Source: a virus. From it: DNA of 25,923 nucleotides. The notes under the pieces were generated by a model that was not told the DNA's origin, searched no databases, and saw nothing but the letters and a program-made list of their open reading frames with translations. The translations under genes were made by a program, and so were the position numbers. This document shows, piece after piece, positions 5,108-15,052 of this stretch. Numbering within the stretch: the first letter of the stretch is position 1; the number at the start of each line of letters is the position of its first letter. Location of the stretch: positions 1-25,923 of IMG/VR virus record IMGVR_UViG_3300047478_000210. One strand, 5' to 3'.

Positions 5108-5127
5108 CTGCATGGCGCAGCACATCA
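5108..5127. repeat. 20-bp repeat, copy 1 (18 of 20 identical to copies 2 and 3)
   Basis: CTGCATGGCGCAGCACATCA. It contains the small inverted repeat CTGC...GCAG and differs from the other two copies at two positions. It is preceded by ATCAACTG, as is copy 3. Confidence 0.75.
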
Positions 5128-5164
5128 GTGAACGAACGAAGTGAGTGAGCGAGAAACAAACTGA

Positions 5165-5184
5165 CTGCGTGGCGCAGCACACCA
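5165..5184. repeat. 20-bp repeat, copy 2
   Basis: CTGCGTGGCGCAGCACACCA, identical to copy 3 at 6716-6735. CTGCG-TGG-CGCAG can form a 5-bp stem with a 3-nt loop. It lies between two GAACGAAGTGAG-type repeats. Confidence 0.8.
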
Positions 5185-5476: not shown

Positions 5477-5626
5477 TTAGCAGTATGCGATGCGGAAGAC
5501 AGCACGGAATGTGCGTCTGTCTCTCTTGCCCCATCTGCGCCAGTGGTAGCGGACAGCCCAGTGCAGTCCGTGCACTGCGATATCGCTAGCCACTCGCTCG
5601 GTTAGCGGAAAGTCAACTGAGCCCAT
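5477..5626 (-). CDS. 49-aa Arg/Trp-rich small protein, coupled to the 219-aa gene
   Basis: A 50-codon frame whose ATG overlaps the stop of the 219-aa gene as TGATG, the usual sign of translational re-initiation. The protein begins MGSVDFPLTERVASDIAVHG. It continues with a strongly basic, aromatic half containing HWAVRYHWRRWGKRDRR and ends FRIAYC. The stop is followed within 8 nt by the terminator, so the gene fills the whole space left in this transcript. I do not recognise the family. Its charge suggests nucleic-acid or membrane contact, which is inference only. The tight fit between overlap and terminator is the main reason to believe it. Confidence 0.65.
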   Translation of the reverse strand: MGSVDFPLTERVASDIAVHGLHWAVRYHWRRWGKRDRRTFRAVFRIAYC

Positions 5627-6285
5627 CAGATTTCACCATCAGCGGCGAACGCCAGCGTTTGCTGTGCCTTCAAGCTGGCGATACGGTTACGCAAGCGCGC
5701 GGCCATCTGCTTCAAGATGGTGTGCTCTTGATCTACCTCTGCGTCCAGTCGGCGAAGCAAAGCGGTGCATTCTTCCTCATTGAACTCGATCACCGGCGCT
5801 GCCAGTTTGGCAAAGCCATTGTCTCGGTACAGCTTGATTGCGCCCGGACGCTTGGATTCATCAGCGGCCTGAATCTTGCCCATCAGCGTGGAAGTGTCGA
5901 ACCAGGAAACAATGCTGGCATTGTTCAGCCGGCCACCTTCGGCGCGCTTCGCTGCATACATCAGCAGCGAGTCAACAGAGAACAAAGCGGCAGGCACTTC
6001 TGACAATTGCGGGTTGTCAGTCCACAGCGAATCGAACTGATCGCGAGCGATCTTGTACAGCGTGTCCAGCACAAGAGAGGTGAACGCGGACGGAACCGAC
6101 GGCACAGACAGTTCCTGCATCACGATCCAGCGTGAGCGATCCTTCTCCGGGATCGGATTCTTCTCGGTGCTGTTGCGGCGGCATTGCAGGATGACGCGGT
6201 GAGTCGTTGCCAGTTCCTTATCGGTGATGGCGGGCGCGACGGTGGAAACGGGAACCATGGTGACAGTAGCTTCGGTGGTAGACAT
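5626..6285 (-). CDS. 219-aa protein of unknown function, separate leftward transcript
   Basis: A soluble 219-residue protein. It has a flexible Thr/Val/Ala-rich N-terminus (MSTTEATVTMVPVSTVAPA) and a central alpha/beta part (DRSRWIVMQELSVPSVPSAF ... FSVDSLLMYAAKRAEGG ... IVSWFDTSTLMGKIQAADE). The helical C-terminus at ~165-210 could form a coiled coil (CTALLRRLDAEVDQEHTILK). The start has AGGAG 9 nt upstream. It has its own promoter region (6300-6480) and its own terminator with a single small partner gene, so it is expressed apart from the head genes. By eye its codons are more GC-ending than the small early genes, as in the 235-aa gene at 15695, which hints at high expression. I do not recognise the family; size and separate expression would suit an abundant early DNA- or RNA-interacting protein, but this is a guess. 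Confidence 0.85.
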   Translation of the reverse strand: MSTTEATVTMVPVSTVAPAITDKELATTHRVILQCRRNSTEKNPIPEKDRSRWIVMQELSVPSVPSAFTSLVLDTLYKIARDQFDSLWTDNPQLSEVPAALFSVDSLLMYAAKRAEGGRLNNASIVSWFDTSTLMGKIQAADESKRPGAIKLYRDNGFAKLAAPVIEFNEEECTALLRRLDAEVDQEHTILKQMAARLRNRIASLKAQQTLAFAADGEI

Positions 6286-6335: not shown

Positions 6336-6352
6336 AGCAAGCGGTGTGCCAG
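6336..6352 (-). promoter_or_regulatory. Sigma-54-like promoter upstream of the 219-aa gene
   Basis: Minus-strand sequence CTGGCACACCGCTTGCT matches the sigma-54 -24/-12 consensus (TGGCAC-N5-TTGCW, GG-N10-GC) with the exact spacing. It would give a leader of about 40 nt before the ATG at 6285. A weaker sigma-70 reading overlaps it (TACTAT as -10). No activator site was identified. Confidence 0.45.
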
Positions 6353-6480: not shown

Positions 6481-6653
6481 CTGTCCCATTCAAGGCCTCG
6501 TGTATTCATTATGTGAGCGAAGCGAACCTGACTATTCGTCTACCGAAGGGGACGAATCAAGAGCAAAGGCTGTGCCAAACAACAGGAGGTGGAACTGGCG
6601 GGTAGCCATGAGTAATGTCAGCACGCAGCGAAGCGGTTCAACTCACTGACTAT

Positions 6654-6669
6654 ACGAGCAGTAGCTCGT
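6654..6669. other. Hairpin with AGTA loop
   Basis: ACGAGC-AGTA-GCTCGT, a perfect 6-bp stem. CACTG/CAGTG flank it and can extend the stem across a bulge. A GGAACGAAGTGACGAATGAA repeat follows at 6681-6700. Confidence 0.75.
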
Positions 6670-6715
6670 CAGTGAATGATGGAACGAAGTGACGAATGAA
6701 CTATCAACTGACATA

Positions 6716-6735
6716 CTGCGTGGCGCAGCACACCA
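6716..6735. repeat. 20-bp repeat, copy 3
   Basis: CTGCGTGGCGCAGCACACCA, identical to 5165-5184 although 1.5 kb away across the 219-aa gene. It is followed directly by the small hairpin ACCAC-GAA-GTGGT. Confidence 0.8.
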
Positions 6736-7089: not shown

Positions 7090-7138
7090 TTATTCCTTAT
7101 GTATTCAATTGTGCTATTGTGCGATTGTGTTCAATCAG
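7090..7138. repeat. Long inverted repeat, left arm with three ATTGTG iterons
   Basis: This arm and 7387-7435 are reverse complements at 44 of 49 positions, including a perfect 21-bp core (7101-7121 against 7404-7424). It contains ATTGTG three times at 8-bp spacing (7108-7113 region, 7116-7121 region, 7124-7129). A further ATTGTG lies near 6954. Confidence 0.85.
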
Positions 7139-7386
7139 GGGGTGCACGGGTGACCGGTCAGGATAGTAACTTACTCATTCTGTATCTCACATACTCTCAT
7201 ATCCTGTTATTCTCTCTATCTCTCTATATCTGGTATATATACTCTATCTTTGTTTTTATATTTTAAGTGAGGGGTAGGTATAAAAGACATCAATTATGTA
7301 TCATGAACAATACACTAGCAAAGGAAACAACAAGGAGAGAGACAGAATAAGATAGCAACAAACACAACTCGGGAGGGCATGAGGGG
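7139..7386. other. AT-rich core between inverted iterons, origin candidate
   Basis: 248 bp enclosed by the inverted arms. It contains a GACCGGTC palindrome, then a very AT- and pyrimidine-rich stretch (about 7180-7265, repeated TCTCTA/TATATA) that should melt easily. A purine-rich GGAGAGAGACAGAATAAGAT side lies near 7332. AT-rich DNA flanked by iterons is the standard form of a replication origin; the function here is inferred. Confidence 0.45.
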
Positions 7387-7435
7387 CTGTTTGAGCACAA
7401 TGACACAATAGCACAATTGAATACATGAGGAATAA
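7387..7435. repeat. Long inverted repeat, right arm with three CACAAT iterons
   Basis: Reverse complement of 7090-7138 at 44 of 49 positions. It contains CACAAT three times at 8-bp spacing (7396-7401, 7404-7409, 7412-7417). Confidence 0.85.
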
Positions 7436-7495: not shown

Positions 7496-7616
7496 GCGTG
7501 AACCCGCTAAGTGAGCGTACAAATAGCTCCTTCCCCATGTCAAGGCTAAACGCTTCGCGCTCACTGCGTTCGGCCTTGACAAGTGGGCCCTGTATCTATT
7601 TGTTCCGTTCACACGC
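7496..7616. ncRNA. Candidate structured RNA or DNA element with four nested stems
   Basis: Nested complementary pieces: GCGTGAAC (7496-7503) with GTTCACACGC (7607-7616, 2-nt bulge); a side hairpin CGCT-AAGTG-AGCG (7505-7517); ACAAATAG (7519-7526) with CTATTTGT (7596-7603); TGTCAAGGC (7538-7546) with GCCTTGACA (7573-7581); and AACGC (7549-7553) with GCGTT (7566-7570). The order is consistent with one three-way-junction fold about 120 nt long. The strand cannot be decided. The apical loop, read on the minus strand (7551-7572), contains the CGAACGCAGTGAGCG repeat theme. No open frame covers it. It does not match an RNA class I can name. Confidence 0.5.
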
Positions 7617-7759: not shown

Positions 7760-7806
7760 CAGCCAGCAGCAATATAGTATAAACATTTACTTAGGGTTTA
7801 CCCCTA

Positions 7807-7834
7807 TTGACGGGGCGGGCAAAACAACTATACT
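7807..7834 (+). promoter_or_regulatory. Early promoter, sigma-70 type
   Basis: TTGACG (7807-7812), a 16-bp spacer, then TATACT (7829-7834): five of six consensus bases in each box. It lies 68 nt upstream of the first early gene. The preceding bases CCCTATTGAC are shared with the promoter at 15607. Confidence 0.7.
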
Positions 7835-7902
7835 TAAACGGTGCGCCAGGAGCGTCACGGAAGATAGTATGTTTGGAAACAAAGTAAGTTAGGAAACAAA
7901 CC

Positions 7903-8879: not shown

Positions 8880-9347
8880 ATGACCACCAAACAATTGATG
8901 ACTTCTCTGGCTGAGATTCGCGGGCACAATCCGTGCGCAGATGGCTGGAAAAGACTACTTGAAGCTCACGGACGCAGACAATATGAAGACCAATTTCCAC
9001 TCGCAGATTGTCTGGTCAGTAATTCGGTGGCTGATGTGCTGTGGTTGATTGGCAAACGAAAAGTGGAAATTGAAATTGCAGTAAAAGCGGCGAGGAAGTT
9101 TGCGGATAGTGTGGCAAAGTATGACAATAAGTGGAGCGAGAGAGCTGCTGCTAATGCTGCTGCTTATGCTGCTGCTGCTGCTGCTGCTTATGCTGATGCT
9201 GCTGCTGCTTATGCTGCTGCTGATGCTGCTGCTGCTGCTGATGCTGCTGCTGATGCTGATGCTGATGCTGCTGCTGATGCTCAACGAGAAATCAACAAGC
9301 AACTACTTCTTGCCGCCATTCGTGAATACGAGGAATCTCACCAATGA
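8880..9347 (+). CDS. Imm5-like phage protein with Ala-rich repeat tract
   Basis: Residues ~8-60 (LAEIRGHNPCADGWKRLLEA ... LVSNSVADVLWLIGK) match the consensus I recall for the Imm5-like putative immunity family, common in phages and prophages. Its members start with a CADGW-type motif and carry Ala-rich tracts farther on. Residues ~89-134 consist only of Ala, Asp, Tyr and Asn, encoded by GCT, GAT, TAT and AAT. The C-terminus returns to ordinary sequence (REINKQLLLAAIREYEESHQ). AGGAGGAAA precedes the ATG. The function of the family is not established; the name does not prove an immunity role. The tract should form a long helix and its DNA is prone to length change by whole codons. Confidence 0.85.
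   Translation: MTTKQLMTSLAEIRGHNPCADGWKRLLEAHGRRQYEDQFPLADCLVSNSVADVLWLIGKRKVEIEIAVKAARKFADSVAKYDNKWSERAAANAAAYAAAAAAAYADAAAAYAAADAAAAADAAADADADAAADAQREINKQLLLAAIREYEESHQ
9144..9281 (+). repeat. GCT-based trinucleotide repeat inside the Imm5-like gene
   Basis: 138 bp made almost only of GCT codons interrupted by GAT, TAT and AAT. It stays in frame throughout and is likely to vary in length by slippage. Confidence 0.9.
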
Positions 9348-11884: not shown

Positions 11885-12928
11885 ATGTCACAACTTACTC
11901 ACAACCTGATTTGTAAATACTCAGGCTTACGAGTTGGGCAGCTGACGTTTTCTACTGTTGCAGGTGCGGTTCCGTATCTCATGCAATGGTCAGAACTTGT
12001 CCCACTTCATCCTGTGTTCAGTCTCAACTACCAGAAACTGCTGGAGTTTAGTAAATCTGAATGGAACCGATTGGCGGCACGAACTGTCAACGATGAACTG
12101 ACAGATGCGGAAGAAGATATTCTGCGAGTCTGTTATCTGGCGCTGCTGCACAAGCTGGATTGTATCAAACAAGACTGTGAAGCACTGCCACCGATAGCTA
12201 CTGTACAAGCTACCATCCAACAACTGTTTGCACTGGCGTACTGGAAGTTTCATCTAGAATCTGCCCGCTTCAGATTTCCAACTCTACATATCAGCAAGTA
12301 CAATGACAATGCAGATTTCAAGTACATCAAAGACTATCTGGACACATGTTTCAGCATCAAGAAAGAGTATGAAACCAAAGTCAACGAAGTAGTTGAAGCT
12401 GAGAAACTGAAGATCGCCGAAGAGGCACTGAAGAAACTGTCGGGTGAGTGGATAACACCGACAAGCAAGAAGTTGCTGTGGAAATGGGTGCGCGCCAATC
12501 TGCCCGAAAAGTATCAACCCGATGCAATCGGCTGGCTTGGCACTTTATTTCTTGGATCAAACAGCACCATACTGGAGTTCGACAAAGACGATCTGGCACT
12601 GGCTGAAGAGATTATTGTGTCCTCTTGTCCGGGCGGCAACAGTATCATGTTCGCAGTCAGAACCAGGCTGGACAATATATCCAAAGTCTGGGAACAGCAT
12701 CACGAGAGTTTCGAGATTCAATTGGACGAACTGGATGAGAGAAGCGGTACACTGGTTAACGGTGTGCAAATGGATATCCCGCATCCAGGTAATCAGCCAC
12801 AGCAGAAAGAGTTTGACAGCAAAGGCAAGTATTACGTAGCAGTCGCCAAGTGGGAAGTAGCAATGGCGGCATGGAAGAAACACGGTAAGCAAGAAGGAAC
12901 ACAAAGTGAGCAACATTCTCAACTCTAA
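11885..12928 (+). CDS. 347-aa protein of unknown function upstream of the helicase
   Basis: Starts MSQLTHNLICKYSGLRVGQL with GAGGTAACGC upstream. It is large for this region and almost wholly helical. A charged coiled-coil stretch lies near residues 155-185 (EYETKVNEVVEAEKLKIAEE, ALKKLSGEW). An aromatic segment LLWKWVRANLPEKYQPDAIG follows, and the tail is Gln/His/Lys-rich (KKHGKQEGTQSEQHSQL). The N-terminal Cys in LICKYSG has no clear metal-binding partner. It ends inside the next gene. The position before the helicase suggests a replication accessory role, such as a loader or initiator, but no motif proves it. Confidence 0.82.
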   Translation: MSQLTHNLICKYSGLRVGQLTFSTVAGAVPYLMQWSELVPLHPVFSLNYQKLLEFSKSEWNRLAARTVNDELTDAEEDILRVCYLALLHKLDCIKQDCEALPPIATVQATIQQLFALAYWKFHLESARFRFPTLHISKYNDNADFKYIKDYLDTCFSIKKEYETKVNEVVEAEKLKIAEEALKKLSGEWITPTSKKLLWKWVRANLPEKYQPDAIGWLGTLFLGSNSTILEFDKDDLALAEEIIVSSCPGGNSIMFAVRTRLDNISKVWEQHHESFEIQLDELDERSGTLVNGVQMDIPHPGNQPQQKEFDSKGKYYVAVAKWEVAMAAWKKHGKQEGTQSEQHSQL

Positions 12929-13363: not shown

Positions 13364-15052
13364 ATGAGCAACATGCAAGATGTGATGGCGCGAGCACTGG
13401 CTGCGGCGAAAGAGAAGCAGCTACCAAAGACTGGTCCGACCATTCAAGAGTTACTGGCAAAACCTGTAGCAGTCGCAGCGCCAGTAGTGACAAGCGGCGA
13501 ATGGCTGTGGAATACTGAACAGGATTCTGCAATCAAGAAGGGCATCTTCGGAGAATCATTTTGCTTGATCGGCGCAGCAGGTACTGGCAAGACAACCACA
13601 CTACGCGGGATGCTTTTGCGTATGCTGCAATCTGGTCGCATTCCAATGCTACAGTCAGCTACACAATGGCTGTCAGCTAATACACCTGGTGTTGTGTTGC
13701 TGTCCTATACCCGTCGGGCGGTGCGAAACATTGCACGGCAAATGCCGAAGGAGTTGCAAGCACATTGTCTGACGATTCACAAGCTGCTGGAGTTCGCACC
13801 TGAAAAATACTTTGAAACCGACAGCGAGGGTAATCAAGTTACCAAAATGCGATTCGTGCCGCAAAGAAACAAACAATATCCGCTGCCAAGGGATTTGAAA
13901 ACCATCATCATCGACGAATCATCAATGGTCAGTACAGACTTAATGGAGTTGTTGCTTGATGCGCTGCCGAATAGACACAATGTGCAGTTCATATTTCTGG
14001 GAGATTTGAATCAGTTGCCGCCGGTGTATGGTAATGCTGTTTTAGGTCGCAGTCTATTGGAACTTCCAATCGTAGAGCTGACACAAGTATATCGTCAGGC
14101 TCTGGAATCTCCAATCATTGCACTGGCATTGAGTGTCAAGAACAACAACTTCAAACAGTTCAACATAGATGCTGCTGAACTGTGGGGAGCAGAGAAAGGA
14201 TTCGATGTCAGAGAGGTGAAGAAGAAGATCACACTGGACAAACCTGGGCGCGGCAAAGTAACTCTCCAGCCGTGGAAGGGGAAGTATGAAATGGAAGATG
14301 CGCTGCACATGATGTGCGGACAACTGCACAAATGGATTGAGACAGAAGAATACATGCCCGACGAAGACATGGTACTTTGTCCGTGGAACAAAGCATTCGG
14401 TGCAGATGAGATGAACAAATCCATCGCACAGAAACTGTCAAAGATCAGAGACTTGCCGGTGTTTGAAGTCATCGCAGGATACAACAAACATTACTTCTCA
14501 ATTGGCGACAAGCTGTTGGTGGACAAGCAAGAAGCGTTCATCAAGGATATCTATCCCAATCCAAAGTATGTGGGTAAGAAGCCCGCGAAAGCAAGCAAGA
14601 ATCTTACTCGCTGGGGTGCTGGTGCGGAACTGGATATGGACGGTGCAACCAGTGTGGACATTGACGAACTGTTGCAGAATCTGGCTGACGTTGAAGATCG
14701 TACAGCAGAATGCAGCCACGTCATTAAAGTGTTGATGGTCGATACAGACACTGAAGAGTTGATTACCAAATCAGCAACCATCAACAATGCACTGTTCGCG
14801 TATGTGATTACAGTTCATAAGGCACAGGGCAGTGAGTGTCGGAAGGTATTCTTTCTCACCCACAACTGTCACAGCAAGATGTTGTTCAGAGAGTTGGTAT
14901 ATACAGGAGTGACTCGTGCGGCCGAAGAGCTTCACGTTATCTGCTCGCCGATGATGTTTCAAACAGCAGCAAATCGTCCACGAATCAAAGGAGATACCCT
15001 GGCAGCTAAACTGGAGTTCTACGCTGAACGTCTGAAGGAGGAAATGCGATGA
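13364..15052 (+). CDS. SF1 DNA helicase, RecD/Dda-like
   Basis: An ATP-driven DNA-unwinding enzyme of superfamily 1 (RecD2/Dda type). Motif I (Walker A) is GAAGTGKT at residues 70-77. Motif Ia lies in VVLLSYTRRAVRNIA (~110-124). Motif II (Walker B) is IIIDESSMV at 181-189. Motif III is GDLNQLPPV at 213-221. Near the C-terminus motif V is AYVITVHKAQGSE and motif VI is YTGVTRAAEEL. Upstream of motif I, residues ~35-60 hold the Q-motif-like sequence (WLWNTEQDSAI). Length 562 aa with an insertion between motifs III and V. It lies in the replication arm and overlaps the next gene by 4 nt. In phages such helicases support fork restart or recombination-dependent replication. All catalytic motifs are intact. 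Confidence 0.93.
   Translation: MSNMQDVMARALAAAKEKQLPKTGPTIQELLAKPVAVAAPVVTSGEWLWNTEQDSAIKKGIFGESFCLIGAAGTGKTTTLRGMLLRMLQSGRIPMLQSATQWLSANTPGVVLLSYTRRAVRNIARQMPKELQAHCLTIHKLLEFAPEKYFETDSEGNQVTKMRFVPQRNKQYPLPRDLKTIIIDESSMVSTDLMELLLDALPNRHNVQFIFLGDLNQLPPVYGNAVLGRSLLELPIVELTQVYRQALESPIIALALSVKNNNFKQFNIDAAELWGAEKGFDVREVKKKITLDKPGRGKVTLQPWKGKYEMEDALHMMCGQLHKWIETEEYMPDEDMVLCPWNKAFGADEMNKSIAQKLSKIRDLPVFEVIAGYNKHYFSIGDKLLVDKQEAFIKDIYPNPKYVGKKPAKASKNLTRWGAGAELDMDGATSVDIDELLQNLADVEDRTAECSHVIKVLMVDTDTEELITKSATINNALFAYVITVHKAQGSECRKVFFLTHNCHSKMLFRELVYTGVTRAAEELHVICSPMMFQTAANRPRIKGDTLAAKLEFYAERLKEEMR

Follow-up and report, generated by a model that had tools for sequence, protein, structure and literature searches.

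A conserved element of mirrored short-period iterons as a candidate replication origin of PaP2-like phages and their uncultured relatives

Introduction

In the lambda-type origin, tandem phage iterons adjoin an easily melted stretch within the replication region, and the locus described here shares this arrangement. Lambda has four 18-bp iterons, which are located on one side only and inside gene O. A second likeness exists to the origins of Rep_3-type iteron plasmids, which combine direct iterons with an AT-rich melting region and support episomal maintenance; in such plasmids an iteron usually measures about 20 bp, and DnaA boxes accompany the iterons. In archaeal ORB-type and in SV40-type origins, opposed initiator sites flank or surround a melting element and loading is bidirectional. 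A further likeness is found in the Fredfastierviridae (PaP2, 119X), which have the same genome plan as the phage analyzed here and a non-coding hub with mirrored CAAGGT iterons around an AT-rich core. The PaP2 record does not label this hub as an origin. In the literature searched we found no description of the mirrored-array architecture for PaP2-like phages, and the text passages found for phage Tiera discuss no origin.

For podophages that have neither a phage RNA polymerase nor a known initiator, the origin is in most cases unmapped. Episomal persistence without integration has been reported for a phage with 98.6% identity to PaP2 (PMC13348215), and this lifestyle needs an autonomous replicon. 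The Shea paper, which reports this persistence, names no replicon (PMC13348215). Here we analyzed a stretch of 25,923 nucleotides of viral DNA (IMG/VR record IMGVR_UViG_3300047478_000210, positions 1 to 25,923), in the following called the window, together with related phages and contigs. It contains a mirrored iteron element which is a concrete replicon candidate for the episome of a PaP2-like phage.

Results

Genome organization of the window phage

The window phage is a podovirus-like relative of PaP2 with a large terminase (TerL) identity of about 34%. Its parent genome is a contig of 43,303 bp, which covers all of the window sequence from position 62 on and closes on itself by a 127-bp end repeat; the length of this repeat is possibly an artefact of the assembly. 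Left of the hub are located the genes for the conserved protein p219, the small and the large terminase, the portal, the scaffold and the capsid. To the right follow the early genes, p347, a Dda-like helicase, a PD-(D/E)XK-like nuclease and a Sak4-like annealing ATPase, and this arm additionally encodes a family-A DNA polymerase and a primase/helicase. On the circular map the gene arms diverge only at the hub, and they converge about 19 kb to its right.

Some further features of the window were recorded. A short open stretch at about 7783-7892 (plus strand), which precedes the first early gene, reads TPIDGAGKTT; it resembles the P-loop of a nucleotide kinase and looks like a gene remnant. Positions 8880-9347 (plus strand) encode a protein of 155 amino acids with a long low-complexity run of alanine, aspartate and tyrosine. 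The non-coding stretches 5119-5184 and 6663-6735 are about 74% alike in inverted orientation and contain many CGAAG- or TGACGAA-like fragments.

Table 1. Positions of the mirrored element and of neighbouring features within the window
Feature	Position	Strand	Description
Left iteron arm	7090..7138	+	ATTGTG x3 at 7108, 7116, 7124; 8-bp period
Right iteron arm	7387..7435	-	mirror of left arm; CACAAT x3 at 7396, 7404, 7412
Core	7139..7386		left half pyrimidine-rich, centre AT-rich, right half purine-rich
Predicted unwinding element	7207..7266		least stable 60 bp of window and parent genome (nearest-neighbour duplex energies)
Sigma-54-type -24/-12 promoter sequence TGGCACAGCCTTTGCT	6562..6577	-	0 mismatches; points left, away from hub
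Second sigma-54-type promoter sequence TGGCACACCGCTTGCT	6336..6351	-	0 mismatches; just upstream of p219
p219	5626..6285	-	conserved, hub-adjacent; candidate iteron-binding protein, inferred from position only
p347	11885..12928	+	conserved, unknown function, beside helicase gene; second candidate initiator or loader
Dda/RecD-like helicase gene	13364..15052	+	replication arm; phrog_325, E = 1e-60

Mirrored arms around the least stable duplex of the genome

The two arms of the element, each 49 nt long and separated by 248 nt, are complementary at 44 of 49 positions, and the whole element spans 346 bp from arm to arm. In both arms the start-to-start spacing of the iterons is exactly 8. With a score of 39 the hub arms are the top inverted pair of the parent genome, the second-best pair reaching 16, and 100 dinucleotide shuffles of the hub gave a mean of 11.3 and a maximum of 15. 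In the unrelated control phages T7, LUZ24 and lambda the best inverted pair anywhere in the genome scored at most 14-15. A DNA search with the window hub against annotated phages gave no match, and a search of Rfam found nothing. A 21-bp hairpin (81% complementary, 12-nt loop) is located directly to the right of the right arm, at 7533-7586.

Within the core of the window phage the purine content is 0.40 in the left and 0.68 in the right half, and the AT content over the central 80 bp is 0.74. For 17 of 24 contigs, including the window phage, the 60-bp stretch with the lowest duplex stability anywhere in the contig is located in the core between the two arms, whereas the arm-to-arm span accounts for only about 1.1% of the contig sequence. 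Alignment of the hubs at their centres yielded an average AT content of 0.76 at the midpoint versus 0.46 near +-100 bp, and a purine content rising from 0.37 to 0.62 across the centre; 26 of 30 hubs agree in the direction of this change. It is possible that this switch of the purine strand stems instead from divergent transcription. Many hub centres of relatives (for example G005, G014, L029 and L036) contain a recurring CTTTAAATT-like element in either orientation, which adjoins a G or C run of four or five nucleotides.

These results can be compared with a first-pass annotation made from the sequence alone. It had described arms complementary at 44 of 49 positions with three ATTGTG copies each, 8 bp apart, which held at the coordinates given in Table 1, and had placed them in a divergent non-coding hub just before the replication arm, which the gene layout confirmed. 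It had also called the core AT-rich and pyrimidine-skewed; the first is correct for the centre and the second for the left half only.

Conservation of the layout in related phages

Relatives were drawn from an alignment of TerL, which provided 80 loci; a scan of bacterial genomes with TerL gave a single weak and irrelevant match. Where a locus provided sufficient sequence, an iteron-blind search upstream of the terminase almost always revealed a single dominant inverted pair, with a span of mostly 200-480 bp. Mirrored arrays are common to 31 related contigs, including the cultured Pseudomonas phage PaP2 (Fredfastierviridae) and Polaromonas phage Tiera, and their position is constant, in the non-coding hub between the terminase side (terS/p219) and the helicase/p347 side. 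Of 24 long contigs, 18 have the hub pair as their highest-scoring inverted pair, and in one more it is tied for the top.

When hubs were compared with shuffled sequences, 31 of 32 scored above all 100 shuffles (one of the 32 is a duplicate contig), with a narrow margin in the weaker hubs of G009, G015, G019, G023, L029 and Tiera. Because the hubs had been located by their arms, this test is not blind, and we regard the genome-wide ranking and the stability test as the stronger evidence. The ungapped arm score of PaP2 is not above its shuffles because the PaP2 arms contain indels; the CAAGGT units themselves are plainly mirrored around the AT-rich core and are kept in four other cultured PaP2-like phages. 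A low-scoring pair in L030 was rejected as not being the hub; the full contig (G024) gives the hub pair with a score of 31. In two relatives, Aeromonas phage P5 and G010, no arms were detected, and the hub of G010 was possibly lost at a contig break.

The first-pass annotation had regarded mirrored iteron arrays as unusual in a phage of this type, which failed for this group, where they are the rule. It had also named a recent insertion lacking in functional relatives as a finding that would refute an origin. This is mostly contradicted by the occurrence of the arrays in 31 contigs at the same place with diverged sequence.

Iteron words, period and turnover

The iteron word varies by lineage (ATTGTG, TGTAAC, TGTACC, TGTTC, GTGAC, CAAGGT), and the period is always short, 7-10 bp and mostly 8-9 bp. 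Most hubs have a TGT core with constant polarity (TTGTG, TGTAAC, TGTACC, TGTTC, TGTGTA); exceptions are GTGAC (G004), AACACAGA (G012), ATAAC (L057) and CAAGGT (PaP2). Tandem pairs of the local unit occur 2-8 times per hub and, in 15 of 16 genomes checked, nowhere else. They therefore define a single cis site rather than a regulon. In comparison to its close relatives L068, L069 and L072, L052 is one 8-bp unit short in both arms. This paired loss reads as if the symmetry of the arms is maintained, which we can only offer as a possibility. A comparison of iteron similarity with ten proteins, with TerL allowed for, gave at most a weak hint of a link, for the helicase alone (p = 0.019, uncorrected for the ten proteins).

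Candidate initiators

The annotation had also proposed a search for a phage protein binding the ATTGTG repeats. No known initiator was found, and p219 and p347 remain as candidates whose binding is inferred. Protein p219 is present in 32 loci, adjoins the hub wherever both are seen and is 14-32% identical to the window copy; both p219 and p347 are conserved in 16 of 16 closer near-complete genomes examined. In three lineages (G004, G020 and G023) p219 is flipped relative to the terminase genes. Searches with p219 and p347 against Pfam, PHROGs and PDB sequence profiles gave nothing usable, and fold searches with models of both proteins revealed no match below E 0.9. A PDB match of p219 to 7uek (labelled OT3, E = 2e-4) was discounted, since no fold match backs it.

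Among 15 relatives neither a Rep_3 initiator (positive controls were detected) nor a lambda O-type protein (Phage_rep_O) was found. Searches for RepA_N and for a single-subunit RNA polymerase (PF00940) gave no match in the relatives, and no match in any control either. In 17.4 kb of hub sequence there is one DnaA box, and none in the window hub; IHF boxes do not stand out in the hubs.

Discussion

We consider it likely, with a probability of roughly 0.72, that the 346-bp element is a bidirectional replication origin on a circular genome. The mirrored arrays, their conservation in spite of sequence turnover, the stability minimum, the switch in strand composition, the divergent/convergent layout and the restriction of the arrays to a single locus are shown. 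The origin reading of the first-pass annotation is thus supported by the conserved layout, the genome-wide stability minimum and iteron pairs confined to a single locus, although initiation is not proven and there are no replication data. Genome-wide GC skew, which had been suggested as a check, tracks gene direction and cannot separate replication from transcription. Against an origin speak the lack of a recognized initiator and the failure to find the arms in P5 and G010.

In the proposed mechanism, a phage-encoded protein would occupy the iterons of each array, with their 8-bp period, by cooperative binding. Together, the mirrored arrays would strain and open the AT-rich centre, and each would send one helicase/replisome outward. 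With one outward replisome per array, forks would therefore leave to the left, into the structural arm, and to the right, into the replication arm, and may come together close to the boundary where the gene arms converge, some 19-24 kb away. All of this is inferred, from the binding of a protein and the melting of the centre to helicase loading and fork direction.

The main rival is a role in transcription, given the accumulation of outward-facing sigma-54-type promoters next to the hubs. The hub would then be a divergent transcription control region and the arrays operator or enhancer sites for a regulator of the promoters of both arms. This is supported by the hub being the map's only divergence point and by a 28-fold enrichment of strict sigma-54-type sequences within 1.2 kb of hubs (p = 3e-8). 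Nine strict sites are located near hubs versus four elsewhere, and 8 of the 9 face outward. Perfect, outward-facing -24/-12 sequences were also seen near the hubs of G005, G008, G009, G012, G014 and L027, and a scan for sigma-70 promoters and terminators remained at chance level. As the sites are enriched at hubs and directed outward, transcription control is very probably part of the hub in some lineages, including the window phage.

As the sole function of the arrays, however, transcription control appears unlikely. Strong arrays without a nearby sigma-54 site occur in G004, G011, G018, L002, L023, L039 and L057, and a sigma-54-type activator (PF00158) was found in 0 of 21 records, although a host activator is not excluded. 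In the window phage the promoters are located about 500-750 bp outside the left arm. Moreover, transcription control alone leaves unexplained that the weakest duplex of the genome lies exactly between the arms. Since the hubs without sites are equally strong and no phage activator was found, we treat the arrays as an origin and the promoters as its neighbours. The sites may point to a host activator and RpoN acting on one or both gene arms.

The other alternatives fare worse. A centromere-like partition site of the episomal form, with short repeats of the ParR or omega type, would agree with the persistence of a PaP2-like phage as an episome (PMC13348215), and a period of 7-9 bp resembles the short repeats bound by ribbon-helix-helix proteins. 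We regard it as very unlikely, because a ParA-type ATPase (PF13614) was found in 0 of 15 relatives and partition sites need no melting-prone core. Similarly improbable is a packaging start or genome terminus recognized by terminase. The terminase genes are nearby and several GenBank records of PaP2-like phages start or stop inside the hub, but such record ends reflect a shared convention and vary among relatives (Tiera, FBPa48, 20Aug470), and pac or cos sites are not known to contain mirrored arrays around a melting core. We consider least likely that the element borders an invertible or mobile segment, as could be suggested by inverted arms flanking a segment and by the flipped p219 next to it in G004, G020 and G023; 15 relatives revealed no serine or tyrosine recombinase (integrase, resolvase), and the arms are tandem iterons with varying sequence and constant layout instead of recombination sites.

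If the element is an origin, a bolder reading would be a distinct class of phage origin common to PaP2-like phages and uncultured relatives. Its layout would consist of a melting centre between mirrored arrays whose iterons measure 8-9 bp and mostly share a TGT core; its initiator, p219 or p347, would have a previously unseen fold and a DNA specificity shifting fast between lineages; and it would serve both lytic replication and episomal persistence. Taken as a joint claim, we hold this to be tentative, with the balance tipping slightly against it. In any case, one recognizable layout in about thirty genomes shows where to look, can be tested in cultured phages and leads to the prediction that one of two or three conserved genes encodes an unknown initiator.

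Compared with lambda, this phage group has arrays with an 8-bp period on both sides, in non-coding DNA and without an O-like protein. In contrast to Rep_3 plasmids the period is 7-10 bp, and there are no DnaA boxes in the window hub and no Rep_3 protein. The ORB- and SV40-type origins have other initiators (an Orc/Cdc6- or T-antigen-like protein was not seen among the families matched), and here the sites are short, reiterated 8-bp units. The Fredfastierviridae differ from the window phage in the iteron word, with a TerL that is only about 34% identical. Taken together, iterons and an unwinding element are already known from other origins; new are the missing initiator, the mirrored short-period form and its conservation throughout the group.
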